Shown here piece by piece: positions 7,846 through 25,090 of a stretch of 64,000 bases of DNA. Origin of the DNA: Chloroflexota bacterium (lineage in GTDB: Bacteria > Chloroflexota > Ktedonobacteria > Ktedonobacterales > JADMIN01); the NCBI GenBank assembly GCA_021323855.1, contig JAJPKE010000015.1, positions 1-64,000 on the forward strand. Reading direction: 5' to 3'. Numbering within the stretch: the first letter of the stretch is position 1; the number at the start of each line of letters is the position of its first letter. A program made the translations under genes and the position numbers. The notes under the pieces are model-generated. The model had not been told where the DNA came from and did no database searches. It worked only from the letters and a program-made list of their open reading frames with translations.

Positions 7846-10800
7846 TCAGACGTTGGCGAGCGTGAGAAAATGGAGATTGTTGCCCTCGCCAACGATGATC
7901 CGTTGCCCGTTCCGGCTCACCGCCAGACACCTGAGTTCACTTTCCGCTGGCCAGCGAGCTACTTCGCCCCCTGTCTGTGCATCCCAGAGCCGCAGGGTCG
8001 CATCATCGGACACACTGAGGATAAAGCGGCCATCGGGGCTGAAGACGCCAGCATTCACCTCTCCGCTATGCCAGAAGGCGCGCAGCTCTTCTCCTGTTTG
8101 CACATCCCAGAGGCGGAGCGTCATATCACTGGATGCGCTGAGGATATATGTGCTATCAGGGCTGAAGACGCACGTATTGATGCTTTGTGTGTGCCCCCAG
8201 AACGCACGAACTTCATCTCCTGTCTGCGCATCCCACAATATGAGAGGAAAATGTTTCTCTGTCAGGCTAAATAGTGCCCCTTTTCCACCCAGGACGTAGC
8301 GGCCATCAGGGCTGATGGCGCAAGCGGTCACCGTACTGGCATACTCATCGCTCTGTTCCTGGTACATGTAGATGAGTTCTCTCGTTTCGACATCCCACAG
8401 CCGGACACCGATATCCCGGAGATCTCCTGACGTACTCACGATGTAGCGGCCATTGGGGCTGATGGCGCAAGACTCTATTCGTTCCGTATGATCCTGGAAA
8501 ATGGCGCTTTGCTCGCCCGTTGTGACATCCCACAGGCGGAGGGTGCTATCCTGCGATCCACTGAGAGCGTACTTGCCATCGGGGCTAAACGCACACGTTA
8601 GAACCATTTTGGTATGTCCCTGGAGGATGCGCACCGGCTCCTCGGTCTCAACATTCCAGAGCCGCAGCGTGTTATCTCTGGAAGCGCTAAGAGCATAGGT
8701 GCCATCAGGGCTGAAGGCGCAGGACCATATGAGATCAGAATGGCCCTGAATGGTGGTGCTCTGTTGGTTTATCTGATCTACTGTAGCACGCTCGATATTC
8801 GCGACATTCCAGAGTCGTTGTGTGTTATCGTTCGATGCGCTCAGCGCGTACTGACCATCTGGGCTAAATGTGCAGGCGCTTACCCTGGCTGTATGTCCCT
8901 GAAAGGTATGGAGCGGCGCGCCCGTTTGCAGGTTCCAGAGGCGGAGGGTGAAGTCATCAGATGCGCTCAGGAGGTGGTTTCCATCCGGGCTGAAGGCAAG
9001 AGCATTCACATAGGCGGTATGACCGGCGAACGTGCGCAGCGCCTTCCCCGTTTGCGTCTCCCACAGGTGTATCGTGTAATCGCTCAGCGTTCCGAGGATA
9101 TACCGCCCATCCGGGCTGAAGACGCAGGTATGGATCAACCCATTCTGCACCTGAAGGGTGTAGAGCGGTCGCCGTTTCTCGTTCTGTACATCCCAGACGA
9201 GGATGCTGGCGTTCCAGGACTCGGCATCGCTCGATGCGCTCAAGGCATAGCGCCCATCCAGGCTGAAGGCAAGGGCGCCCATCGCGCTGCGTCGCCCCTG
9301 AACGGCATGCGAGTGAGCCGTGCGTCTCTGCTCGATATGCGAGATGTCCCAGAGACGCAGGACATGATCTTCCGATGCGCTCAGGATTTGCGCGCCATCC
9401 GGGCTGAACATACAGGTCTTGATTTCAGCGAAATGCCCCAGGAGCGTAGCAACCAATTCGCCGGTTTCCACGCTCCACAGCCGCAGTATGCCGTCGCGCG
9501 CGCCACTCAGCACATACCGGCCATCAGGGCTGAACGCAAAAGCATGAATCCAGTTGGGATATCCCTGGCGTGTCTCAGTTGGCCCCTGAAATGTGCGGAC
9601 AACAGTTCCTGTCTGGATATCCCATACCTCTACGGTAGAGGCGGAAGTACCGCCTACACTCAGGACATAGCGTCCGTCTGGGCTAAAGATGCAGGCGCTG
9701 ATGCTGCCTGGCGTTTTCTGGAACGCGAGTCGTTCTTCCCCTGTTTGCACATCCCAGAGCCGTATGGTGTGGTCCTGGGGCACGCTCAGCACATAGCGCC
9801 CGTCGGGGCTGAAAACACAGGCGCCTGTATAGGTATTGTGTGGCATGATGCGCAGCAAATCGCCGCCCGCTTTATCCAGCGTTTGTGAGGTCAGCGCGAA
9901 ATGCGGGTCGGGCCACATCGGCCAATCATGCAGCAATGGATAGACCGACGGCGCGCGTACCCGTAGCTGGTTCGGCAGTTCCTGTGGCGCGCTGTCGAGG
10001 ATATGGCGGCTCAACTCCAACGCTTGTTTGAGCATTTGAGGGCTGCTGTCTTCGTTCGTCAGATACGAGAGGTCATCTACTGCGGCCTGTGTTGAGCCAG
10101 CCTGAATGCGCGCCTGGAGAAACTCCGCGTCGAAGAGCGTCGCGTGGAGTTCGTCCCATAATTGGCCTGCCGCCTGTTGGAAGGCCAATTCGCTGACCAT
10201 CCGTTCATTGACGATACCGCGCGGGCGCTCGGTGGTATTCACGAGGTAGGGCGCCTGCCCGGAGACTCTGCTGAAATAGTGAGCGAGGTCCCGGTGGCGT
10301 GCGCTGTTCGTGTCGCCGGAGAGATAACGGCTTTCGATGGCGCTCTGCACCTGCTGATGGTAAAACGCGAGCACAGCCGTCTGGTCCACGGCGCGTTCGG
10401 TCAACCCCCACTCGATATCGGCATAGAGCCGCGCCCAGAGGACCGCCGGAAAGTGTTTCCCCTCCGGCGCAAACAAGTACGAGCGTGTCATATCACGAAC
10501 AAGATCGGGATGCTGGTCAATGACGGCGAGCACTTCATCTTCAGTGAGGCCATGCTTGCCGGCGGCGATGAGTCCCAGCGCGTAGGACGGCAATACCTTC
10601 CCATGCTGCGTCTCCTCTTCCATCTCCCCTAGCCAGGCGCCGATGAGACCCGGAACCGTTGGCTGGAGTGGCGGAAGCTCAGTTCTCCACGATGGCCAGC
10701 GGCGCGCTCGTTCGGCAATCACGCGCAGGCCGAGCGGGTTAGGATGGTCCCGATAGTAGGCTTCGATGGCTGCCAACTGGTCAGGCGTACAGGCACGGCC

Positions 10801-12288
10801 CTCATCTCTGAGCCACGCGCCAAACAAGGTCATAGCGTCGCCAACGGCGGGTGGTCGAACAGTCATCTGCGCAGTGGCGGGCAGGCGAGACTGGATGGCG
10901 TCACTGTCAGCTCCCGGCAGCATCGAGATGATCAGGTGGACGTGAGGCGGTAACGTTGCTGGAATCCACCGGCTGAGGTGTTGCTGGTCCTGGGAATGGC
11001 TCTGAGGATGGTCGCCCTGAAGCTGGTCAAGGGCGTCTACCAGCAGCATGAGTGGGCGATCAGCCGTTGCCAGCCCCAGGAAAACAGGCAATTGGCGTTC
11101 GCGTTCGGCAAAGGAGTCTGGCACCACCAGATCGTTGGGGTGAGGGTAGGCGGCCAGCAGATCGCGCTCGATGCCAGCCAACAGGTCGCTGACATGCGAG
11201 ACCGTCGTGGAGCCGCCAATGAAATACTGCTGGTGGAGGACGTTTGTGTAGGTGGTAAGCGCAGCCTCCGCCGCTTTGAGCAGCAATGAGGTTTTGCCGA
11301 TGCCGGGGACGCCGGAGAGCAGCAATGGCGTCGCGGCAGGAGCGGACAGATAAGCGGCAATGCGTGCCAATGCGTCTTGCTGGCCAGCGAAATGGCGCAG
11401 CCGGTCGCGCGCGAAGGCAAGGTGCGCCAGCGCATCGCGGTCATCGGCTTGCTCTCCAGCAGAGCGCGCCAGCGCCCTATCAATACGCTGCGTCAGCGCC
11501 TGTTGTATCTGGGTGCAAAACGCTTCGATTGATTCATCACTGATGTGGCCATCAATCACCTCGGCGTTGTACGTCTGGTAGTGTTCTCCATAGGCGGTGC
11601 GCAGATTGGCGATCAATGCAGCCAGGTGTTCTCTACCCAGCGTGGTTGGCTCTTTGAAGTGGTCTGGAGCGCCAGCGTTGGTCATCCGGCGATGGAGAAT
11701 CAGTGGGGTTGCCGTTGGAGACCCTTGATAAATGCCAGCGTCAATCTCTTGCTCGGTCACGGAGGCCGTCAGCGCAACACGAGTCTGATGTGAAACCGGC
11801 GCGGTGTCGCATGCCCCGCTGAGCGCATCATGCAACATCACGCTCTCCTGCTCCCAGCCATCTCCGCGTGGACGCAGCACATATGCAGCGAGAACGGCGT
11901 TGGTGTCCAGGCGATACCAGCGTTGCGCCAGTGTGCGCGCGCTTTCCGAGAGGTGCGCCATGAGCAGGTCAAAATCCATCTGGGGAATGGCTTCAGCGAG
12001 CATGCGTGTGCCATAGCGATCACCAAGCAATGCGACGAAGTTGACATCGGGCGAGATGCGCTGGCAACGGCCAATTTCTTCCAGGCAGGCGCGCACGACA
12101 TACTGGTCTGCGCTGGCTGATTCTGAAATTCCCCAGCGCAGATCAATCGGCAGGAATCGCGCACCGCGTTCCAGGCAATAGCGACGCAGCGCAGGGAAGA
12201 CGCGCGCCTGCAAGGCATCGCGCTCGGTTTGGAAATCAGCGAAGGTCGAACTGAAGAAGACGCGAATGACCGGAGCGAGATGTGGCAT
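7846..12288 (-). CDS. DUF4062-STAND NTPase-WD40 repeat giant protein
   Basis: 1480 residues from the ATG at 12288, which follows GAGG; the frame extends upstream to 12489 but that part has no family features. Order: DUF4062 (about 8-105; VIRVFFSSTFADFQTERD), a helical linker, a STAND/NACHT-like NTPase with P-loop GVPGIGKTS (326-334) and Walker B LMLLVDALDQL (about 425), a helical region, then 15 WD40 units from about residue 830 (repeated FSPDGRY...LRLWD), enough for two seven-bladed propellers. This order recalls animal NWD1/NPHP3-type proteins and bacterial STAND sensors, which oligomerise after ligand binding. No separate effector domain was recognised except DUF4062. A sensing or conflict role is inferred. 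Confidence 0.92.
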   Translation of the reverse strand: MPHLAPVIRVFFSSTFADFQTERDALQARVFPALRRYCLERGARFLPIDLRWGISESASADQYVVRACLEEIGRCQRISPDVNFVALLGDRYGTRMLAEAIPQMDFDLLMAHLSESARTLAQRWYRLDTNAVLAAYVLRPRGDGWEQESVMLHDALSGACDTAPVSHQTRVALTASVTEQEIDAGIYQGSPTATPLILHRRMTNAGAPDHFKEPTTLGREHLAALIANLRTAYGEHYQTYNAEVIDGHISDESIEAFCTQIQQALTQRIDRALARSAGEQADDRDALAHLAFARDRLRHFAGQQDALARIAAYLSAPAATPLLLSGVPGIGKTSLLLKAAEAALTTYTNVLHQQYFIGGSTTVSHVSDLLAGIERDLLAAYPHPNDLVVPDSFAERERQLPVFLGLATADRPLMLLVDALDQLQGDHPQSHSQDQQHLSRWIPATLPPHVHLIISMLPGADSDAIQSRLPATAQMTVRPPAVGDAMTLFGAWLRDEGRACTPDQLAAIEAYYRDHPNPLGLRVIAERARRWPSWRTELPPLQPTVPGLIGAWLGEMEEETQHGKVLPSYALGLIAAGKHGLTEDEVLAVIDQHPDLVRDMTRSYLFAPEGKHFPAVLWARLYADIEWGLTERAVDQTAVLAFYHQQVQSAIESRYLSGDTNSARHRDLAHYFSRVSGQAPYLVNTTERPRGIVNERMVSELAFQQAAGQLWDELHATLFDAEFLQARIQAGSTQAAVDDLSYLTNEDSSPQMLKQALELSRHILDSAPQELPNQLRVRAPSVYPLLHDWPMWPDPHFALTSQTLDKAGGDLLRIMPHNTYTGACVFSPDGRYVLSVPQDHTIRLWDVQTGEERLAFQKTPGSISACIFSPDGRYVLSVGGTSASTVEVWDIQTGTVVRTFQGPTETRQGYPNWIHAFAFSPDGRYVLSGARDGILRLWSVETGELVATLLGHFAEIKTCMFSPDGAQILSASEDHVLRLWDISHIEQRRTAHSHAVQGRRSAMGALAFSLDGRYALSASSDAESWNASILVWDVQNEKRRPLYTLQVQNGLIHTCVFSPDGRYILGTLSDYTIHLWETQTGKALRTFAGHTAYVNALAFSPDGNHLLSASDDFTLRLWNLQTGAPLHTFQGHTARVSACTFSPDGQYALSASNDNTQRLWNVANIERATVDQINQQSTTIQGHSDLIWSCAFSPDGTYALSASRDNTLRLWNVETEEPVRILQGHTKMVLTCAFSPDGKYALSGSQDSTLRLWDVTTGEQSAIFQDHTERIESCAISPNGRYIVSTSGDLRDIGVRLWDVETRELIYMYQEQSDEYASTVTACAISPDGRYVLGGKGALFSLTEKHFPLILWDAQTGDEVRAFWGHTQSINTCVFSPDSTYILSASSDMTLRLWDVQTGEELRAFWHSGEVNAGVFSPDGRFILSVSDDATLRLWDAQTGGEVARWPAESELRCLAVSRNGQRIIVGEGNNLHFLTLANV

Positions 12289-12424
12289 ATGGTCCTCTAT
12301 TTCCTGTACAAAATCACAGTTGGTTTCTATGGTTTCTATGGTCTTTACGCCACTTCGCGCCCATCTGAATGTGCTGTGGCCACACCAGCTACACCGGCTA
12401 CATCTGCCCGGATCAGCCGCGTGC

Positions 12425-12757
12425 TCAACTATCAGTGTCCGGGCTGGTGGGGTCCAACCACGAGCGTTGACGAGGAGAATCACTGGCAAGTGTCGTATGG
12501 GTGAGCTTACCCGTACTCTCCAATTGCTCTAGCGCCCGTCGCACGATGCCTTCGCGGGTACTTCCCTGCTGATGATAGAGATTCAGGCTTTGCTCTAGCA
12601 TGGCCTGCGCAGCGGACGGTTGCCCTTGTCTGGCGAGCGCATAGCCAAGCGCCAGCAGGATATCAGCTCGCTCAGGAGCGGATTGATGAGCGCGTTGCAG
12701 TACGCGATACTCTTGATGAGAGTATACACTATTTCTATAAATTATCCAGCCGGGCAT
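12425..12757 (-). CDS. Small TPR-like protein or TPR gene remnant
   Basis: 110 codons ending 136 bases before the STAND gene. Residues about 18-82 form two TPR-like helical hairpins (PERADILLALGYALARQGQP, then AMLEQSLNLYHQQGSTREGIVRRALEQLE). No ribosome site precedes the ATG at 12757, and the P450 gene ends 8 bases away, so this may be the 3' remnant of a longer TPR gene. Confidence 0.4.
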   Translation of the reverse strand: MPGWIIYRNSVYSHQEYRVLQRAHQSAPERADILLALGYALARQGQPSAAQAMLEQSLNLYHQQGSTREGIVRRALEQLESTGKLTHTTLASDSPRQRSWLDPTSPDTDS

Positions 12758-14039: not shown

Positions 14040-14873
14040 CTAGCGCGATGCCGTATCGGATGGCCTGGCAAGCCGCAGTCGCTCTCTATCACTTCCCTGA
14101 AGCAGTCCACGCCGGAAACCATCCGCCGCCGCCTGCAACGCCTCGCGAACCATTTCGCTGATCGAGACGGTTTGCCCATCAGCCAGGATAACTTTGACGT
14201 TGCCCATCAGCACGAACACGTCTATCTCCAACTGTGATGCCGCTGGCTCAGTGGTGGGAATATGTTCTTCGTGGCCGGACGTGACCACCCCGCTGGCGCC
14301 TTCGCCCAGCATATTGGTGTCGCTCAGCAGCACGGTTGAGCGCACGGTGACGCGCACATTGCGGGGCACAAAGATCATCGCGTCGCCCATGATGACCCGC
14401 ACCCGCATCTTTGCCTGTGGTGGAATCTCAGCCTTGCGCAGATCGAGTCGTATCCCACCCATGAATGCCACTGCCTCGGACTCTGGCGCGAGCTTCCAGG
14501 GACGGCGCAGCTTCTTCACCTGTCCCATGAAGGCTACCATGCGCTTGCGAGGCACGCTCGAAGTGGTTGTGGCTAGCGGATGGGGCCGCTCCAGGATGGC
14601 CAGCGACGCGCCAGGTGAGGCAGGTAACTCGCGCAAGATGACCTGGCATTCGTCAGCGTTCTGTGCCAGCACCAGCGCATCGAGCGCGCGCCGAAACGTC
14701 TCGAACTCGATATCGCCGCGCTCATAGCGCGCACGTACATCTTGAATGGCGGCTTGCTGCGCCGCCAGGGGTGTCGTGGTCGTTGAGGTTGCCGGTGTTG
14801 GTTGTGTCGGTTCCACACTGCGCTCCGTTTCGTTCCGCCTGCTGGTAGCAATGGGCAGCGCGTCATATCTCAT
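14040..14873 (-). CDS. LiaF-like protein with SHOCT-like N-terminal domain
   Basis: 277 residues. Residues about 42-85 form a DUF1707/SHOCT-like helical pair (RARYERGDIEFETFRRALDAL). Residues about 110-250 form a repetitive beta domain like the C-terminal part of LiaF/YvqF cell-envelope stress proteins (VAFMGGIRLDLRKAEIPP, MRVRVIMGDAMIFVP, ITVLMGNVKV-like). No membrane helices are present, unlike full LiaF. A role in envelope stress sensing is inferred from the fold. It lies 18 bases before the P450 gene on the same strand. Confidence 0.75.
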   Translation of the reverse strand: MRYDALPIATSRRNETERSVEPTQPTPATSTTTTPLAAQQAAIQDVRARYERGDIEFETFRRALDALVLAQNADECQVILRELPASPGASLAILERPHPLATTTSSVPRKRMVAFMGQVKKLRRPWKLAPESEAVAFMGGIRLDLRKAEIPPQAKMRVRVIMGDAMIFVPRNVRVTVRSTVLLSDTNMLGEGASGVVTSGHEEHIPTTEPAASQLEIDVFVLMGNVKVILADGQTVSISEMVREALQAAADGFRRGLLQGSDRERLRLARPSDTASR

Positions 14874-15640: not shown

Positions 15641-16465
15641 CTATATCAGTTCTTTGCGCTTCAGACGGTCTATACTGGCCGTCACATCCGTGATGTTCAA
15701 TCCGGTCGCCCTGGCGATGCTGGCCGGTGTTGCACTTGAACTATAGGCCGCCATGACTACGCGGTCAATATCCACTTTGCCGAATTCACCCATTGTGATC
15801 GTCAACACATTGTTGATGAGGGTACCTGCACTGGCCAGCGGGACATACTGGCCTCCACTGTTTTTGGCTATCTGCTGAAAAGTGCGCTGCATATCGCGGT
15901 CGTTACCGATGCCCAGGCAGAAAATCGTGATACCTTTCTCCCTCGCCTCCTGCGCCACCGTCTGTACGTTATGCCCACAGGGGCAGCCACGCGAGAACCC
16001 ATCGCCAGATGCTCCCTCGCCATGCGGAGGAGCATCGCCCGCCAGCAAGATCACTTTATGAGAACCTTTGCGCCATTGCATGCGATACACTGCATCGTAG
16101 ATGCCATCAACGACCGCTTCAGGCCCGTCGCCGCCGCCTTCGGCACTTGCCCTATTGAGCGCCTGCTGTGTCTGCTCCAGATTTTCAGAAAGTGGAGACA
16201 GATTAGTGACGAACGAGCTATCTTCTGGTGGATGGTCGCGATAGAGAACGAGTCCATACGCCATTTTGGGTTTCATGCTATGTGTCGCCAGCTTACTTGC
16301 AAATGCCTTGAGTTCTTTGCGGGTAGCGTCAATATAGCTGGACATGCTACCAGTTGCGTCCATCACGAAACAGATATCCACCTGGCGTAAGGCTTCGTCG
16401 GCGTCAAACAGTGGGTTTCCCGAACGGTCATGGTGTCCGCCTGGCGGTTCATAGCGGCGAGGCAT
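15641..16465 (-). CDS. vWA protein with C-terminal winged-helix-like segment
   Basis: 274 residues from the ATG at 16465 (AGGAG upstream). Residues about 29-215 form a von Willebrand A domain with MIDAS DATGS (Asp36, Thr38, Ser40) and a second metal motif AGDAPPHG. It is most like vWA domains found with alpha-kinases. Residues about 225-274 (VDIDRVVMAAYSSSATPASIARATGLNITDVTASIDRLKRKELI) look like a winged helix with a recognition helix. That pairing suggests an output that touches DNA, which is inference. Last gene of the nine-gene vWA/kinase/phosphatase operon. Confidence 0.85.
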   Translation of the reverse strand: MPRRYEPPGGHHDRSGNPLFDADEALRQVDICFVMDATGSMSSYIDATRKELKAFASKLATHSMKPKMAYGLVLYRDHPPEDSSFVTNLSPLSENLEQTQQALNRASAEGGGDGPEAVVDGIYDAVYRMQWRKGSHKVILLAGDAPPHGEGASGDGFSRGCPCGHNVQTVAQEAREKGITIFCLGIGNDRDMQRTFQQIAKNSGGQYVPLASAGTLINNVLTITMGEFGKVDIDRVVMAAYSSSATPASIARATGLNITDVTASIDRLKRKELI

Positions 16466-16591
16466 GGTTGTATTCTCCTCACATACTGCAAATACAACAT
16501 TCGATGAAACAACAAACAACAACAATTGACGCATGACAGGAATGTACGCAATTGCTGGGACTCCTCACCCCACACACCACCCCTCGGCGCC

Positions 16592-20556: not shown

Positions 20557-20604
20557 ATGGTAATGGTAATGGTTATGGTAATGGTTATGGTTGTGGTTGT
20601 GGTT
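20557..20604 (+). repeat. Six-base tandem repeat at a gene end
   Basis: Eight units of ATGGTA/ATGGTT/GTGGTT in a row. On the minus strand the repeat covers the last codons of the vWA gene (giving a Gln-Pro run), its TAA stop and the following spacer before the PP2C gene. Copy-number change could alter the C-terminus or spacing. Confidence 0.8.
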
Positions 20605-21316
20605 CAACCCCATACGGAAATGGCGGCAACTCCATGACAGCGTTGCCTGAGACATAGGCATCACATTCCAATGCGATCAATTGTGTTGCCCAGGCGAAAA
20701 AGTTGGACAGTGACTCCGCTCGCGCCGGGTGCAGGCGTAATAAGGTACAGCCAAATGGCCGCAAGGCCGCCGACAAATCAATGCGCATCTGAAGCACGAT
20801 GAGTTTTGGCGTATGTCTGGCGCCTGCACGGTGGAGATATGCCAGCGCCTGCTGCCAATCTCGTTCATCGTTCGGGATGTCGCCAAGCACCAGGAACACC
20901 AGCGCATCCAGGTCGCCTGGATGTTGTGGCGTAGGATCAATCGTGTCGTAATGCAGCGCGGCTGCCAGACTACGTAAGGCGGGCGCCAGCGATGTGTCGC
21001 CACCGGCATCGAGCGTGAGTGGTGGTTGAAAATGTCGCACGGGTTCGAGCCACGGAAGCTGTGGCTCATGAAGCGCCGCAGCGCGCTCCTGAAGCGACGT
21101 GGCGCTGAGATAGGCATGGCGCGCAGACCACTGCTGCCGGGAGAGGACATTGCGCACATTGTCGAGACCCTCTAGCATGGCAACATTGAGTTGTCCGCCC
21201 ATATGGGCCGAACAATCCAATAAAAAGTACACCGGCAGGCGCCGCAAGTTGCGGATGGCGGGTAAGGGCGCAAGCGGCGCTCCACCAACCGGCGGCGATT
21301 TGGTCGGATCTCCCAT
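20585..21316 (-). CDS. vWA-like protein with degenerate metal site
   Basis: 243 residues from the ATG at 21316, which follows GGAG. The core is a vWA fold related to the two next genes upstream (LRRLPVYFLLDCSAHMGG). The MIDAS reads DCSAH instead of DxSxS, so the second Ser is lost; GGDTSLA keeps a Thr, and LVLGDIPND keeps an Asp. Ends in a Pro-Gln run encoded by a tandem repeat. Probably a structural partner of the canonical vWA protein, by inference. Confidence 0.8.
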   Translation of the reverse strand: MGDPTKSPPVGGAPLAPLPAIRNLRRLPVYFLLDCSAHMGGQLNVAMLEGLDNVRNVLSRQQWSARHAYLSATSLQERAAALHEPQLPWLEPVRHFQPPLTLDAGGDTSLAPALRSLAAALHYDTIDPTPQHPGDLDALVFLVLGDIPNDERDWQQALAYLHRAGARHTPKLIVLQMRIDLSAALRPFGCTLLRLHPARAESLSNFFAWATQLIALECDAYVSGNAVMELPPFPYGVEPQPQP

Positions 21317-21347
21317 CAGCAGCTCCAACTCATGAGATGACAGTGTT

Positions 21348-21401
21348 CACTCTGGCCTGCGGCCACTCCTCTCCCCGCAGGGAGAGGAGCCGGAGGTGAG
21401 G
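21348..21401 (-). repeat. Dispersed CCCCTCTCC palindromic repeat, copy 1
   Basis: In minus orientation it reads CTCACCTCCGGCTCCTCTCC, a short loop, GGAGAGGAG, then GTGGCCGCAGGCC. The same right flank, GTGGCCGCAGGCC, occurs in the copy at 43235-43280. Located between two vWA genes. Confidence 0.7.
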
Positions 21402-21412
21402 ATATACCTGAC

Positions 21413-22075
21413 TTATCCGCCATATTTGATGACGCCGGATACAGCGGCGGTTGGCGCAACCATATCGGCGGTTTCACCGCCGCCGGCCAGCGCTTTCGAG
21501 ACGCCGGCAATAGAGCCAGTGATCCACTTGAAATAAGCCTTGATCTGCTCAGGCGTAGCATCGCGCATCAGGTAAACTTCATCAGTGACCTGCCTCAGCA
21601 TGGCCGGATCTGCGTCGTCGCCACAGCCTAGCGCGATAATCGTGGGCCGCTGACTGCCGCTCAACGCCTTGATCTTTGCGACTTCCGGCTGCCAGACATC
21701 AGTCGGTTGGCCATCGGTGAGGAGATAGACCAGCGGGCGGTAATCGCCTTTCTTCGTGGTATCAGTGGTCGCGTTCAGGTCGTTCTGGATGGATTCCACC
21801 AGCACATGGAAGGCGGACCCCATCGCCGTGCGTCCGCCAGCCGTGAGCGCTGGTGGAACGAAATCTACCAGCGCCGTGAAATCTTCCTGCTCAGCGGCAT
21901 CTGCAAAGCGAATGACTGAGAGATAGACCGTTTCGACAGCGCGTGGCTCTCTCATTAGTAAGCTATAGATCAGCCCCAATCCTTCATTGACCGCAACGAT
22001 TGGATCACCCATCATCGAGCCGGAACAATCGAGCAATAAATACACCGGCAGACGGCGCAAACCACTGGATGGCAT
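21413..22075 (-). CDS. YegL-like vWA domain protein (canonical MIDAS)
   Basis: 220 residues, almost entirely one vWA domain, the size of E. coli YegL. All metal-site motifs are intact: DCSGS (MIDAS 1), GGRTAMG (Thr) and LLTDGQPTD (Asp). The ATG at 22075 follows GAGG. YegL-type vWA proteins are encoded next to a kinase and a PP2C phosphatase, as here. vWA domains hold partner proteins through a bound metal; a scaffold or clamp in a phospho-signalling complex is the likely role. Confidence 0.9.
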   Translation of the reverse strand: MPSSGLRRLPVYLLLDCSGSMMGDPIVAVNEGLGLIYSLLMREPRAVETVYLSVIRFADAAEQEDFTALVDFVPPALTAGGRTAMGSAFHVLVESIQNDLNATTDTTKKGDYRPLVYLLTDGQPTDVWQPEVAKIKALSGSQRPTIIALGCGDDADPAMLRQVTDEVYLMRDATPEQIKAYFKWITGSIAGVSKALAGGGETADMVAPTAAVSGVIKYGG

Positions 22076-22190
22076 AGCAATTCCTCTTTCTCAATACGTG
22101 CGCAAAACACTGCGCGCAACAGAAGAAATCAATCAGGGACGATAGACGGCAGTATCACAGGTATCATCTGGTGGTTCGTCTGTTCTGTTC

Positions 22191-22949
22191 CTATGGGTCC
22201 TCCTCTTCATCTGTTCCGTTCGCTGGCTGCGCTCCACTGGCTGTCGCCGTCCTGGTTGTATTGATGCGGCGCACGCTAGCTTCCAGCGACGATGGTAGCG
22301 CAAATTGTTCACGCACCGCCTCCTGCCCGGTGACGGCCCTAGAGAGATTCACGACAGATCCAGACGTGAAGCGGAAAAATCCGCTAATGAGGTCTGCCGT
22401 TACCTCATTCATCTGAAACACGGTGTCGGCAACTGCGGTGAGAGTTGCCGTATCGGCATCTGCTCCGCATGCCAGCGCCACAATCGTTGGACGCTGGCTC
22501 CCCTGGAGCGCCTTCAATCGAGGCAATTCCACCTGCCAGTCATCAGTTGCCGCGCCGCTCAAAAACAAAAAGACTAATGGACGGTAATCACCTTTTTGCG
22601 TCGTTGTGCCAGCTTGCAAATCCAGTTCGATGGAATCTACGAGCAGGTGGAGCGCCGCTCCTAACGAGCAGCGCCCACCAGCCATCAGCGGCGGCGGAAG
22701 GAACTCTGTGAGTGGAATCAACTCATCCTGCTCGGCGAAGTCAGCGAAACGAATGATCGAAAGCCAGACCATTTCGACAGCGCGCGGCTCACGCATGAGT
22801 TGTTCGTAGATCACCTGCAATCCCTGGCTGAGCGCAACCATCGGTTCGCCGCTCATGTCACCGGAGCAATCGAGCAACAGATATACTGGCAGACGGCGCA
22901 GATATCTGGGGCTGGCAAAGAGATCTTGCTCACCTGTTGACTCATCCAT
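22191..22949 (-). CDS. vWA domain protein, YegL paralogue with damaged MIDAS
   Basis: 252 residues from the ATG at 22949, preceded by GGAGA. It is clearly a paralogue of the next gene (shared RRLPVYLLLDCSG, LMREPRAVE, IIRFADFAEQ, LKALQGSQRPTIVAL). MIDAS 1 is DCSGD (second Ser to Asp), the Thr motif is GGRCSLG, and the third motif is LFLSGAATD (Asp to Ser). Metal binding is therefore doubtful. The acidic tail (TDEEEDP) is unlike its relatives. It starts 14 bases after the MotB-like gene. Confidence 0.85.
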   Translation of the reverse strand: MDESTGEQDLFASPRYLRRLPVYLLLDCSGDMSGEPMVALSQGLQVIYEQLMREPRAVEMVWLSIIRFADFAEQDELIPLTEFLPPPLMAGGRCSLGAALHLLVDSIELDLQAGTTTQKGDYRPLVFLFLSGAATDDWQVELPRLKALQGSQRPTIVALACGADADTATLTAVADTVFQMNEVTADLISGFFRFTSGSVVNLSRAVTGQEAVREQFALPSSLEASVRRINTTRTATASGAQPANGTDEEEDP

Positions 22950-22963
22950 TGCAGTTCTCCACT

Positions 22964-23503
22964 TCAACTCTGCGCATAGAGATACACTTCTAGATTGACA
23001 TAGCTGAGACTACTGTACAGGCTGAAGAATGGAGGGTGATAGGAGGTGCCAATGAAAACGAACCCCTGGTTGCCCAGCGAGCGCAAGACGTCTTCTACCT
23101 TACTGGCAATGTCTTCTGCTTCTCCGGTAAGGCTCTGATCCGGAGCGCCGCCAAACGCCAGCACGAGGCCAGCCCGGCGCCCCTTAAGCGCGTGTTGCGC
23201 ACGCACTTGATTGGCCACATCCTGGCGCGCGCTGGCGCTGCCTGCCAGTAACCCTTGATAATCTACCGTCAGGCTGAAGACCGTCGGTTTGGTTTCCAGG
23301 CGTACCAGTGGCGTCGCGGTTGGGATTGGCGTGAAGGTCGGCGTCGGTGTGGCATGTGCCTGCGTAACCGTGATATCGCGAGTATTGGCGATCAGGAAGA
23401 TCATCGCCAGCGCCAGCAAAAGGTCTGCAAAGAGCCAGCCCGCCGTGTGAAAGAGCGCGCCGCGTTTGCCAGAGTGACCGGAACGCGGTAGATCATTCAT
23501 CAT
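22964..23503 (-). CDS. MotB/ZorB-like single-helix membrane protein
   Basis: 179 residues. A short cytoplasmic N-terminus (about 20) leads to one membrane helix, AGWLFADLLLALAMIFLIANT, with an Asp inside the membrane, as in MotB, ExbD and ZorB proton-path helices. A Pro/Thr linker (TPTPTFTPIPTATP) follows, then an outer domain of about 105 residues (VFSLTVDYQG ... VLRSLGNQGFVF) whose strand-helix order resembles a reduced OmpA-like fold without clear peptidoglycan-binding residues. The gene follows that of the coiled-coil membrane protein. A stator-like pair is inferred; OmpA homology needs structure prediction. Confidence 0.7.
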   Translation of the reverse strand: MMNDLPRSGHSGKRGALFHTAGWLFADLLLALAMIFLIANTRDITVTQAHATPTPTFTPIPTATPLVRLETKPTVFSLTVDYQGLLAGSASARQDVANQVRAQHALKGRRAGLVLAFGGAPDQSLTGEAEDIASKVEDVLRSLGNQGFVFIGTSYHPPFFSLYSSLSYVNLEVYLYAQS

Positions 23504-23593
23504 ACAGATAAACCTTTATCATCGAGCGTGACAGCGTGTAGATGATGTGGCAGCGCCAATGAGTGTGCGCTGCTGACACCGATCTACCGTTCC

Positions 23594-25090
23594 CTACCAC
23601 CAGCCAAATGGACCACGTTTCGTCTTGCCAGCCTTGCCTTTTCCGCCCTTCGCAGTGCTCCCTGGACCTGGGAAAGCACCGGGAGATCCCAATATCACAG
23701 CGAGCTGGCTAGCAGCAGCCGCCAGTTCGCTGGCCGCCAGTTCCAATTGATCGGTTGCCGCTACCATGCGCTTCTCGTATTGCTCCAGGTCGCGCGTGGC
23801 ACTGCTGACATTGCCGCCGATCTGGGCAATGTGCGGCTGCATTTCTTTGGTGATTTGCTCGGCAACCGTCTTGACAGAATCAGCGGAAGCGCCAATTTTT
23901 TGCAGATCGTCTCGCAATGCGTTTTGCGTCGCGTTGAGTTGCGTGACATCAATATTGACCTGGCCCAATCCCACTGCTGCACCGTTGATTTCGTCAGCCG
24001 CCACTTTGAGCCGTTCGTTCACCGTTGAGATTTTGGTGGAAGCATCAACTACGCTCTGCGTCATCTCTGTGAGGCTCGGTTTCAACCCAGCCGTCAGTTC
24101 TTTCGAGACAGCGGAGACTTCTGTGGCTGCCGTCTTCATATCGCCGGAAATAGGGGCCAGTTCGCGTACTAAACCCTGCTGAGTGGTATTGAGTTCACCA
24201 ATCTGGCTGCTCAGTTGATTGCCGATGGTCGTGTAGGTGCCAGCATTCTTCGCCAGCGCCTCCGCTGCTGTCGTTAGGCCGGAAGTGGCTGACGTCAGTT
24301 CTTCTAACTGCTGCTGGTTGCCGTTGAGTTCATCGTGGAGCTTCGTCAGGTCGCCCTGAAGCTGCGTCACCAGTTGTTCCGTCCGTTGCGAAAGGTCGCG
24401 TGTCGCCTGCATAGTCTCGTTGATGACCAGTTGAATGGTTTCGGCCACGGACTGTGCGCTGACATCATCAGAAATCATGACGGCGCCTAGCATGTCGCTG
24501 GCCTTCAGCAACTCGGTTGTCGCCTCATCCAATTGCTTGACAAATGCCGCAGAATCGCGCTGTGCAGCGCTCTCACGCCGTTGTGCCTGGATAGTGAAGA
24601 AAAGACAAAGTGCGAGCAGGATGACGTCAGTGAAGCCGGTGTTTGTGAAGGTGAGAGAAAACGGCATATTGCCGTGAAACCCGCTCTGCCAGAGCGACAG
24701 AAAACTCTGACCATTGTCGCTGGCTTTATACACTTGCAGGTCTTGCTGATACGCAAGTGTGGCAAGCGAAAGCGCCAGCCAGGTCAAAATCAACGGGAGC
24801 AGGCTGAAAACATTGCGCCAACGATACCACTTCTCTGTCCGCGCGGATAGGTGATCTTCGACTTCTTGCTTGAAGAGTGGGGGATTCAGCCATTGGTAGG
24901 CGTCTTTGGCCGAGAGTCTCTTGAAATGAGAACTCACCTGTGATGCGCGTTGTGCTCCCAGCGGCGCACCCAACAGCTTGGCTTTCGCTGCCAGCGCGTC
25001 CAGCAGGGCGAGCGCCTTGTCCCGTTGTTTTTCGGCGGCGTCCGCTGCTATGGATGTTGCGGCGGGCATTGGTATTGCGCTTCCAGACAT
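23594..25090 (-). CDS. Two-helix membrane protein with long cytoplasmic coiled coil
   Basis: 498 residues; ATG at 25090 after GAGGG. Order: about 95 cytoplasmic residues, helix 1 (about 95-116, VFSLLPLILTWLALSLATLA), an outer loop of about 35, helix 2 (about 150-170, FTDVILLALCLFFTIQAQRR), then about 300 residues of near-continuous helix with heptads and many Thr/Ser/Gln, like chemoreceptor signalling rods or the ZorA tail, and a basic Gly/Lys end (GGKGKAGKTKRGPFGWW). First gene of the operon, before the MotB-like gene. It may play the ZorA/MotA part, although sequence similarity to MotA proper was not seen. Confidence 0.7.
   Translation of the reverse strand: MSGSAIPMPAATSIAADAAEKQRDKALALLDALAAKAKLLGAPLGAQRASQVSSHFKRLSAKDAYQWLNPPLFKQEVEDHLSARTEKWYRWRNVFSLLPLILTWLALSLATLAYQQDLQVYKASDNGQSFLSLWQSGFHGNMPFSLTFTNTGFTDVILLALCLFFTIQAQRRESAAQRDSAAFVKQLDEATTELLKASDMLGAVMISDDVSAQSVAETIQLVINETMQATRDLSQRTEQLVTQLQGDLTKLHDELNGNQQQLEELTSATSGLTTAAEALAKNAGTYTTIGNQLSSQIGELNTTQQGLVRELAPISGDMKTAATEVSAVSKELTAGLKPSLTEMTQSVVDASTKISTVNERLKVAADEINGAAVGLGQVNIDVTQLNATQNALRDDLQKIGASADSVKTVAEQITKEMQPHIAQIGGNVSSATRDLEQYEKRMVAATDQLELAASELAAAASQLAVILGSPGAFPGPGSTAKGGKGKAGKTKRGPFGWW

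Follow-up and report, generated by a model that had tools for sequence, protein, structure and literature searches.

A candidate stator-like membrane pair with remote similarity to ZorAB in a vWA-phosphatase-kinase operon of a Chloroflexota bacterium

Introduction

What role do two membrane proteins play at the head of an operon that otherwise encodes vWA proteins, a phosphatase and a kinase? The question is raised by a locus in a Chloroflexota bacterium, which lies in the window analysed here (the whole 64-kb stretch of DNA, forming the first part of a 366-kb contig in a 5.6-Mb draft genome). An earlier note, made from the sequence alone, had proposed that the two proteins, here called stA and stB, are a stator pair, in which a small protein with an Asp in its membrane helix resembles MotB and ZorB, and a two-helix partner carries a long helical tail like that of ZorA. 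Here we examine this proposal using profile, structural and genomic comparisons, and weigh it against other readings of the pair.

Results

An operon of seven minus-strand genes

Seven genes lie head to tail on the minus strand, from 25090 to 16982, and encode stA, stB, three vWA proteins, a PP2C phosphatase and a Ser/Thr kinase (Table 1); stA and stB are genuine genes of this one operon. Beyond its kinase domain, the C-terminus of the kinase reads CPTPSC...CPCC, a putative zinc ribbon. The third vWA protein had no Pfam match of its own. A scan for promoters and terminators gave a signal near shuffle expectation and was left out of the argument. A fourth vWA protein, unrelated to the others, is encoded downstream of the operon (15641-16534). 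Elsewhere in the window, a protein of 1547 aa (7846-12489), much of it WD40 repeats, clusters with Ser/Thr kinases and adjoins a P450 (12765-14021) and a LiaF-like protein (14040-14873).

Table 1. Features of the stA-stB operon, with coordinates in the window.
Feature	Coordinates	Strand	Description
stA, 498 aa	23594..25090	-	ORF; N-terminus in the cytoplasm, then a hairpin of two membrane helices (putatively ZorA-like) and a coiled-coil tail of ~260 residues; resembles an A subunit
stA membrane helix 1, ~residues 94-115	24746..24811	-	invariant P99, T103, W104, A110
stA membrane helix 2, ~residues 149-170	24581..24646	-	contains T166
stA coiled-coil tail, residues 205-466	23693..24478	-	hydrophobic period 3.54; coiled-coil-type profile matches
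stB, 179 aa	22964..23503	-	ORF; single Asp27 membrane helix, Pro/Thr linker, OmpA-like outer domain (predicted); B-subunit-like (ZorB/MotB/ExbD-like helix)
stB Asp27 codon	23423..23425	-	invariant membrane Asp
stB outer domain, residues 66-179	22967..23308	-	predicted beta-alpha-beta-alpha-beta-beta; no PG-binding signature
vWA protein 1, 258 aa	22191..22967	-	degenerate MIDAS (DCSGD); 4-base overlap of its start with the stB stop
vWA protein 2, 220 aa	21413..22075	-	DxSxS MIDAS intact (DCSGS)
vWA protein 3, 247 aa	20585..21328	-	degenerate MIDAS (DCSAH); identified through its resemblance to vWA 1 and 2
PP2C phosphatase, 699 aa	18447..20546	-	PF13672 E=2.9e-19; N-terminal hydrophobic segment, Pro-rich linker
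Ser/Thr protein kinase, 505 aa	16982..18499	-	PF00069 E=2.6e-8; C-terminal CX4C...CX2C zinc-ribbon-like motif

A two-helix protein and an Asp-helix protein

stB has a sole membrane helix (hydropathy peak at residues 21-39), in which Asp27 lies within GWLFADLLLALAMIFL, followed by a Pro/Thr linker at about residues 42-65 and then by the C-terminal domain. In this respect the open reading frame and its hydropathy agree with the earlier note, which had read an Asp in the only membrane helix of the small protein and a Pro/Thr linker behind it. stB had no match in Pfam, PADLOC or NCBIfam at E<=1.

Two hydropathy peaks were likewise found in stA (residues 94-112 and 149-167), as had been proposed for the partner. 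In the alignment, T103 and W104 are present without exception in the stB-paired sequences (50/50), and position 166, in helix 2, is Thr or Ser in 49/50 homologues. Behind the hairpin, residues 205-466 show a hydrophobic period of 3.54 with a power of 7.06, the maximum of 300 shuffles being 2.2. Since this period spans residues 205-466, the coiled coil comprises about 260 residues, so that the 300-residue coiled coil claimed previously stands as a coiled coil with a strong heptad signal, at a length close to the one given. Its comparison with the helical tail of ZorA also holds, as ZorA tails have hydrophobic periods of 3.56-3.68. A long tail is not universal, however: stA proteins of about 240-290 aa with a short helical end occur in seven Chloroflexota genomes. 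Short-tailed stA (about 250 aa) is found next to stB with GWLWAD(I/L)LLG at L191:4866-6111, L192:5627-6907 and L193.

In Pfam, PADLOC and NCBIfam, the matches of stA comprised coiled coils and other weak matches only; PADLOC matches to ZorA were discarded as evidence, since they cover the coiled coil alone (profile positions 373-638). The AF2 model of stA was poor (pLDDT 58), and fold searches with it were therefore uninformative, their matches being generic helical bundles (de novo proteins, ClyA-type proteins and ABC transporters), which we rejected.

The two genes occur together and the Asp is conserved

Named genomes were scanned for loci with the peptide GWLFADLL, which yielded 60 loci from Chloroflexota, Actinomycetota and one Lysobacteraceae MAG. 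In 58 of them, a profile places stA immediately before stB; in one exception (L077) 7 kb separate the two genes within a single operon, and in the other (L075) a contig end precludes seeing stA. Relatives from the same class include Ktedonobacter, Thermogemmatispora and Dictyobacter records, which marks the bacterium as a Ktedonobacteria-type Chloroflexota. Within this class, a whole-protein search found stB relatives, some of them weak, in 21 of 47 genomes, and nearly all of the regions fetched have stA just upstream of stB. Asp27 is identical in every class-level homologue with an intact N-terminus, in the motif GWLFADL(L/F), and remains invariant across phyla at a mean column identity of 20%.

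Because the 60 loci had been picked with GWLFADLL, they offer no independent evidence for this motif, and its conservation was therefore retested through stA alone. A search of 301 Chloroflexota genomes with a profile of the stA hairpin identified 25 stA genes in 21 genomes. Within the stretches examined, an Asp-helix protein is encoded directly downstream of 21-22 of these; for one more, it follows after 7 kb but still inside the operon (L180 of this search, which is the L077 locus). The Asp is kept in every stB partner reached in this way, seven of which carry GWLWAD(I/L)LLG and one GWLYADLLLG in place of the Phe-containing motif. As both the Trp and the Tyr variants keep it, the Asp outlasts changes in its neighbours, and the conservation that had been expected of it in homologues was borne out, in the stA-found partners as well. 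That stA and stB constitute a widespread, obligate-looking pair is thus well supported.

Three stA paralogues (L181, L182 and L183) have no stB neighbour; W104 is lost in 3/3 of them and T103 in 1/3. This decay provides a small natural contrast that appears telling. The same paralogues, in which the TW motif of helix 1 is degenerate, are apparently preceded by a gene for a helical protein.

A probable OmpA-like fold without the peptidoglycan-binding signature

AF2 predicted residues 70-179 of stB with a pLDDT of about 97, as a beta-alpha-beta-alpha-beta-beta domain. In a VIA comparison the best match of this model was OmpA (4rha; Z 8.6, 2.9 A, 100 residues), and further matches included a Borrelia OmpA-like protein (8.1), TagL (8.0) and H. 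pylori MotB (7.3), most of the top rows being OmpA-like. Chorismate mutase, an unrelated fold, reached Z 7.1, near MotB, and an OmpA-like fold is therefore likely for the modelled domain, with some uncertainty. The prediction accords with the OmpA-like outer domain that the earlier note had envisaged.

By comparison with the fetched ZorB and MotB sequences, the peptidoglycan (PG)-binding signature TD...N..LS..R is absent from this domain: T, D, N, L, S and R are invariant in ZorB and MotB, whereas stB keeps only A111, G112, V114, G118 and F148. Wall binding by stB is therefore doubtful, and classical PG binding unsupported. With hhalign, the outer domain alone displayed no similarity to ZorB, and a 20-column match to MotB was judged to be due to chance.

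Profile comparison with ion-driven motors

The earlier note had suggested a profile search against MotA/ExbB, MotB and OmpA models as a check. Neither stA nor stB gave a significant single-profile match to MotA_ExbB, MotB, ExbD or OmpA in Pfam, PADLOC or NCBIfam, which counts against the stator reading. PF01618 was not among the best 25 of 30 Pfam matches of stA, which were coiled-coil-type or weak, and no PF01618 protein was found at E<=1e-5 in the bacterium's own genome (sought in 61 Chloroflexota genomes for reference MotA). When 177,635 PDB sequences were searched with the stB profile (hmmsearch), the top two matches were ExbD, with the Asp aligned, at weak E-values of 0.05 and 0.11.

Comparisons by hhalign, whose pair E-values are uncalibrated, gave the stB helix scores of 31.9 with ZorB, 29.3 with MotB, 27.2 with ExbD and 35.4 with the three combined. 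Reversed controls scored 13-16 (reversed ZorB 14.4), and the best of 74 decoy families 27.8, the next reaching 20.6. The stA hairpin scored 43.4 with three ZorA sequences (119 columns) and 35.3 with eight (80 columns), the register of P99/T103 being ambiguous, as against 12.8-18 for reversed ZorA and 20.5 for the best decoy. With the ExbB and MotA sets, stA was not clearly above the reversed controls. The ZorA and ZorB references came from plasmid records; a ZorA scan of viral contigs returned no match.

The alignment puts T103 of stA on the Thr of the ZorA motif GTFxGL, and an alternative register, with LPxILT on LPGILT, is possible; the spacing from P to T is 4 in stA and, measured to the GTF Thr, 11 in ZorA. 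Given these two registers, residue equivalence between stA and ZorA is uncertain. The comparisons support, short of proof, a remote relationship of stA and stB to ZorA and ZorB. The likeness to MotB and ZorB claimed for the small protein accordingly stands for its helix profile and Asp, and falls short in the outer domain, which lacks their PG-binding signature. The stator pair as a whole gains from the similarity to ZorB/MotB/ExbD and ZorA profiles and from the strict pairing, and is weakened by the lack of the first ZorA helix in stA.

Genomic neighbours of the pair

Neighbour families were detected using HMMs built from neighbour proteins. A vWA, PP2C and kinase triad is encoded on the same strand as the pair in the window and in 21 of the 60 loci (17 Actinomycetota, 3 Chloroflexota and the Lysobacteraceae MAG), with a further case at L196. 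L077 has the gene set of the window, including three vWA genes, in a different order; this is the tandem vWA triplet of 20585-22967, in which the MIDAS is broken in two. The bacterium's genome also carries, on contig C7, a second stA-stB pair (L050:12084-13576) with a 316-aa stA and PDZ-domain neighbours and without the triad.

At 12 other loci of the 60, genes for a DO-GTPase and/or a GAP1-like protein flank the pair (identified with Pfam at L055 and L056). Some of these loci have HSP70 genes, and others ThiF together with a ubiquitin-conjugating-type protein carrying EAD1. At L078, L084, L090 and L106, the DO-GTPase gene is upstream of the pair, and ThiF and a YukD/ubiquitin-conjugating-like EAD1 protein are encoded nearby. 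Pfam detected no DO-GTPase or GAP1 among the proteins of the window operon and the neighbours scanned. The earlier note's picture of the tail as a cable to the vWA/kinase proteins falls short here: gene linkage, seen in 21 of the 60 loci, would be compatible with it, and 12 loci carry DO-GTPase/GAP1 in place of those partners.

Ten actinobacterial loci have a BrxC/D-family ATPase and a DEAD helicase after the pair and triad (Pfam on L104, clustering for the rest); L104:12559-15992 and its nine counterparts are possibly a BREX-related defence operon without a name yet. Other surroundings include a dynamin-like GTPase (~900 aa) and a large partner without a Pfam match, which adjoin the pair at L064, L065 and L099, and an 1801-aa TerB_N/TerB_C protein near the pair (L060:544-5949), another link to Ter stress systems. 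Among recurrent neighbour clusters, f2 was dropped as an ordinary Ser/Thr kinase superfamily (WD40-bearing in the window), as were f100 and f101 beside some pairs, which are a housekeeping aldolase and oxidoreductase.

Discussion

A proposed stator pair as the membrane input of a signalling operon

We consider it reasonably probable that stA and stB form a reduced ZorAB-like ion-driven stator pair within a TerY-P-type conflict or stress operon, the tail of stA coupling the envelope to a phosphorylation switch. In such an arrangement, several stA hairpins would ring an stB dimer, and Asp27 together with the Thr ring of stA would form the route taken by the ions. The outer domain of stB may sense an envelope change, such as phage attack or wall damage, whereupon ion flow would turn or strain the stA tail; the tail would then act on the cytoplasmic vWA/PP2C/kinase module, flipping its phosphorylation state and releasing effectors. 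The same membrane unit would serve DO-GTPase/GAP1 systems in other lineages. We infer the ion flow, a 5:2 assembly of the pair and the coupling to the phosphorylation module. That the pair occurs with two quite distinct kinds of cytoplasmic switch points to an input or energising role and speaks against an effector specific for one substrate. The operon as a whole suggests, short of proof, an immune or stress switch that draws its power or its gating from the ion gradient across the membrane. More tentatively, and with greater doubt than confidence, one may generalise to a reduced, ion-driven rotary stator, its A subunit having two helices and its B subunit an Asp helix, by which a phosphorylation switch of eukaryote-like type and, in other lineages, a GTPase switch would be driven or gated; it would be a mechanical input module shared by several immune-like systems of multicellular-type bacteria.

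Some of the same observations would suit a passive device, which we regard as unlikely: stB as an anchored envelope sensor and stA as a coiled-coil scaffold clustering the kinase module, with the Asp holding helices together and no ion flow. The missing PG-binding signature of stB agrees with this, as does the failure of stA to match ExbB or MotA clearly above reversed controls; a generic sensor would be expected to combine one pair with differing cytoplasmic partners, and some stA proteins, of 250-282 aa, have hardly any tail. A scaffold accounts poorly, however, for the joint conservation of a stator pattern, in which an Asp in the B helix accompanies Thr in both A helices, for the Zorya pair being the best match of both subunits, and for the decay of T103/W104 where stB is missing.

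Alternatively, stA might be a membrane-permeabilising effector, a two-helix pore comparable to the SLATT-type 2TM effectors that occur in GAP1 systems; stB would gate the pore, and the signalling module would open it so as to kill or arrest the infected cell. Pore effectors with 2TM architecture are common in GAP1-N2 systems (PMC7159879), and the pair recurs in such systems. We nevertheless find this improbable, as no SLATT model was among the best 25 of 30 Pfam matches of stA. To our knowledge, strict A-B pairing, an Asp helix and an OmpA-like outer domain are not features of 2TM pore effectors. Effectors usually differ from system to system, whereas stA-stB is constant across them. Finally, a chance look-alike, in which an ordinary lipid-facing helix with one Asp adjoins a coiled-coil protein of no functional relation to it, draws on the weakness of the individual sequence scores and is scarcely credible, being largely refuted by the cross-phylum invariance of the Asp, the strict gene pairing and the decoy and reversed controls.

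If the stator reading is true, ion-driven stators would be a general front end of bacterial conflict systems, not one specific to Zorya; there would be a candidate, with the directly testable residue Asp27, for the membrane input that TerY-P and GAP1-N2 systems lack so far; and few known stator rings would be smaller than one built from two-helix A subunits, which would be useful for the study of motor evolution. Pfam, NCBIfam and PADLOC hold no model for the family, and pipelines built on those libraries would therefore overlook it. We found no description of the pair with its triad in the open-licence papers searched, which falls short of proof of its novelty.

Comparison with known systems

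On sequence grounds, the vWA, PP2C and kinase genes of the window fit the TerY-P definition (PMC11090510), since all three members of that triad (a TerY-like vWA, PP2C and a kinase with a C-terminal zinc ribbon) are contiguous here. The window differs in possessing three vWA genes, two of them MIDAS-degenerate, and in that a stator-like membrane pair heads the operon. TerY-P modules have a role in stress and defence, and TerY-P-like modules with an OB-fold kinase provide phage defence on their own (PMC11090510). The kinase-PP2C-vWA theme is shared with the GAP1-N2 GTPase-centric conflict systems, for which Kaur et al. describe this theme and HSP70 (PMC7159879); the text of that paper makes no mention of MotA or TolQ, and its GAP1-N2 section contains no such membrane pair.

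MotA/MotB, ExbB/ExbD and TolQ/TolR resemble stA-stB in the Asp helix of the B subunit and in the A-B gene order, and differ in having three or four membrane helices in the A subunit, compared with two in stA. GldL/GldM, the type 9 secretion motor, likewise has just two membrane helices in its A subunit, and it assembles as 5:2; we know of no Asp helix in GldM equivalent to that of stB. Other non-flagellar relatives are covered by a survey of MotAB homologues (PMC12505986) and by a study of TolQ-vWA motors (PMC12204202); the passages found in the two do not describe the stA-stB pair.

Zorya, a 5:2 anti-phage motor, shares with the window an A gene upstream of the B gene, a long coiled-coil tail behind the A hairpin and, in ZorB, an FADL..(A/G)L...FL-type helix with an ion-binding Asp and an OmpA-like outer fold, the last being predicted for stB. 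In contrast to ZorA, which shows an extra N-terminal peak in 6/8 sequences (the other two apparently being start-truncated), stA lacks the first helix, and the outer domain of stB lacks the TD/N..LS..R signature of ZorB. The partners of stA-stB are vWA, PP2C and kinase proteins or DO-GTPase/GAP1, with no ZorC/D/E-like neighbour: PADLOC gave no convincing ZorC/D/E match among the window proteins scanned, and ZorC1 was not found in the bacterium's own genome, where the search yielded 1e-106 in a control genome (G254) but also nothing in G413, which bears ZorA. We do not file stA-stB as Zorya, since the searches for an equivalent of the first ZorA helix, for the PG-binding signature and for ZorC/D/E found none of them. 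Zorya defence depends on the Asp of ZorB, which lies packed against a ring of Ser/Thr residues in ZorA, and also requires the ZorA tail and PG binding (PMC11890865). On present evidence, stA-stB probably works like a ZorAB-type stator.
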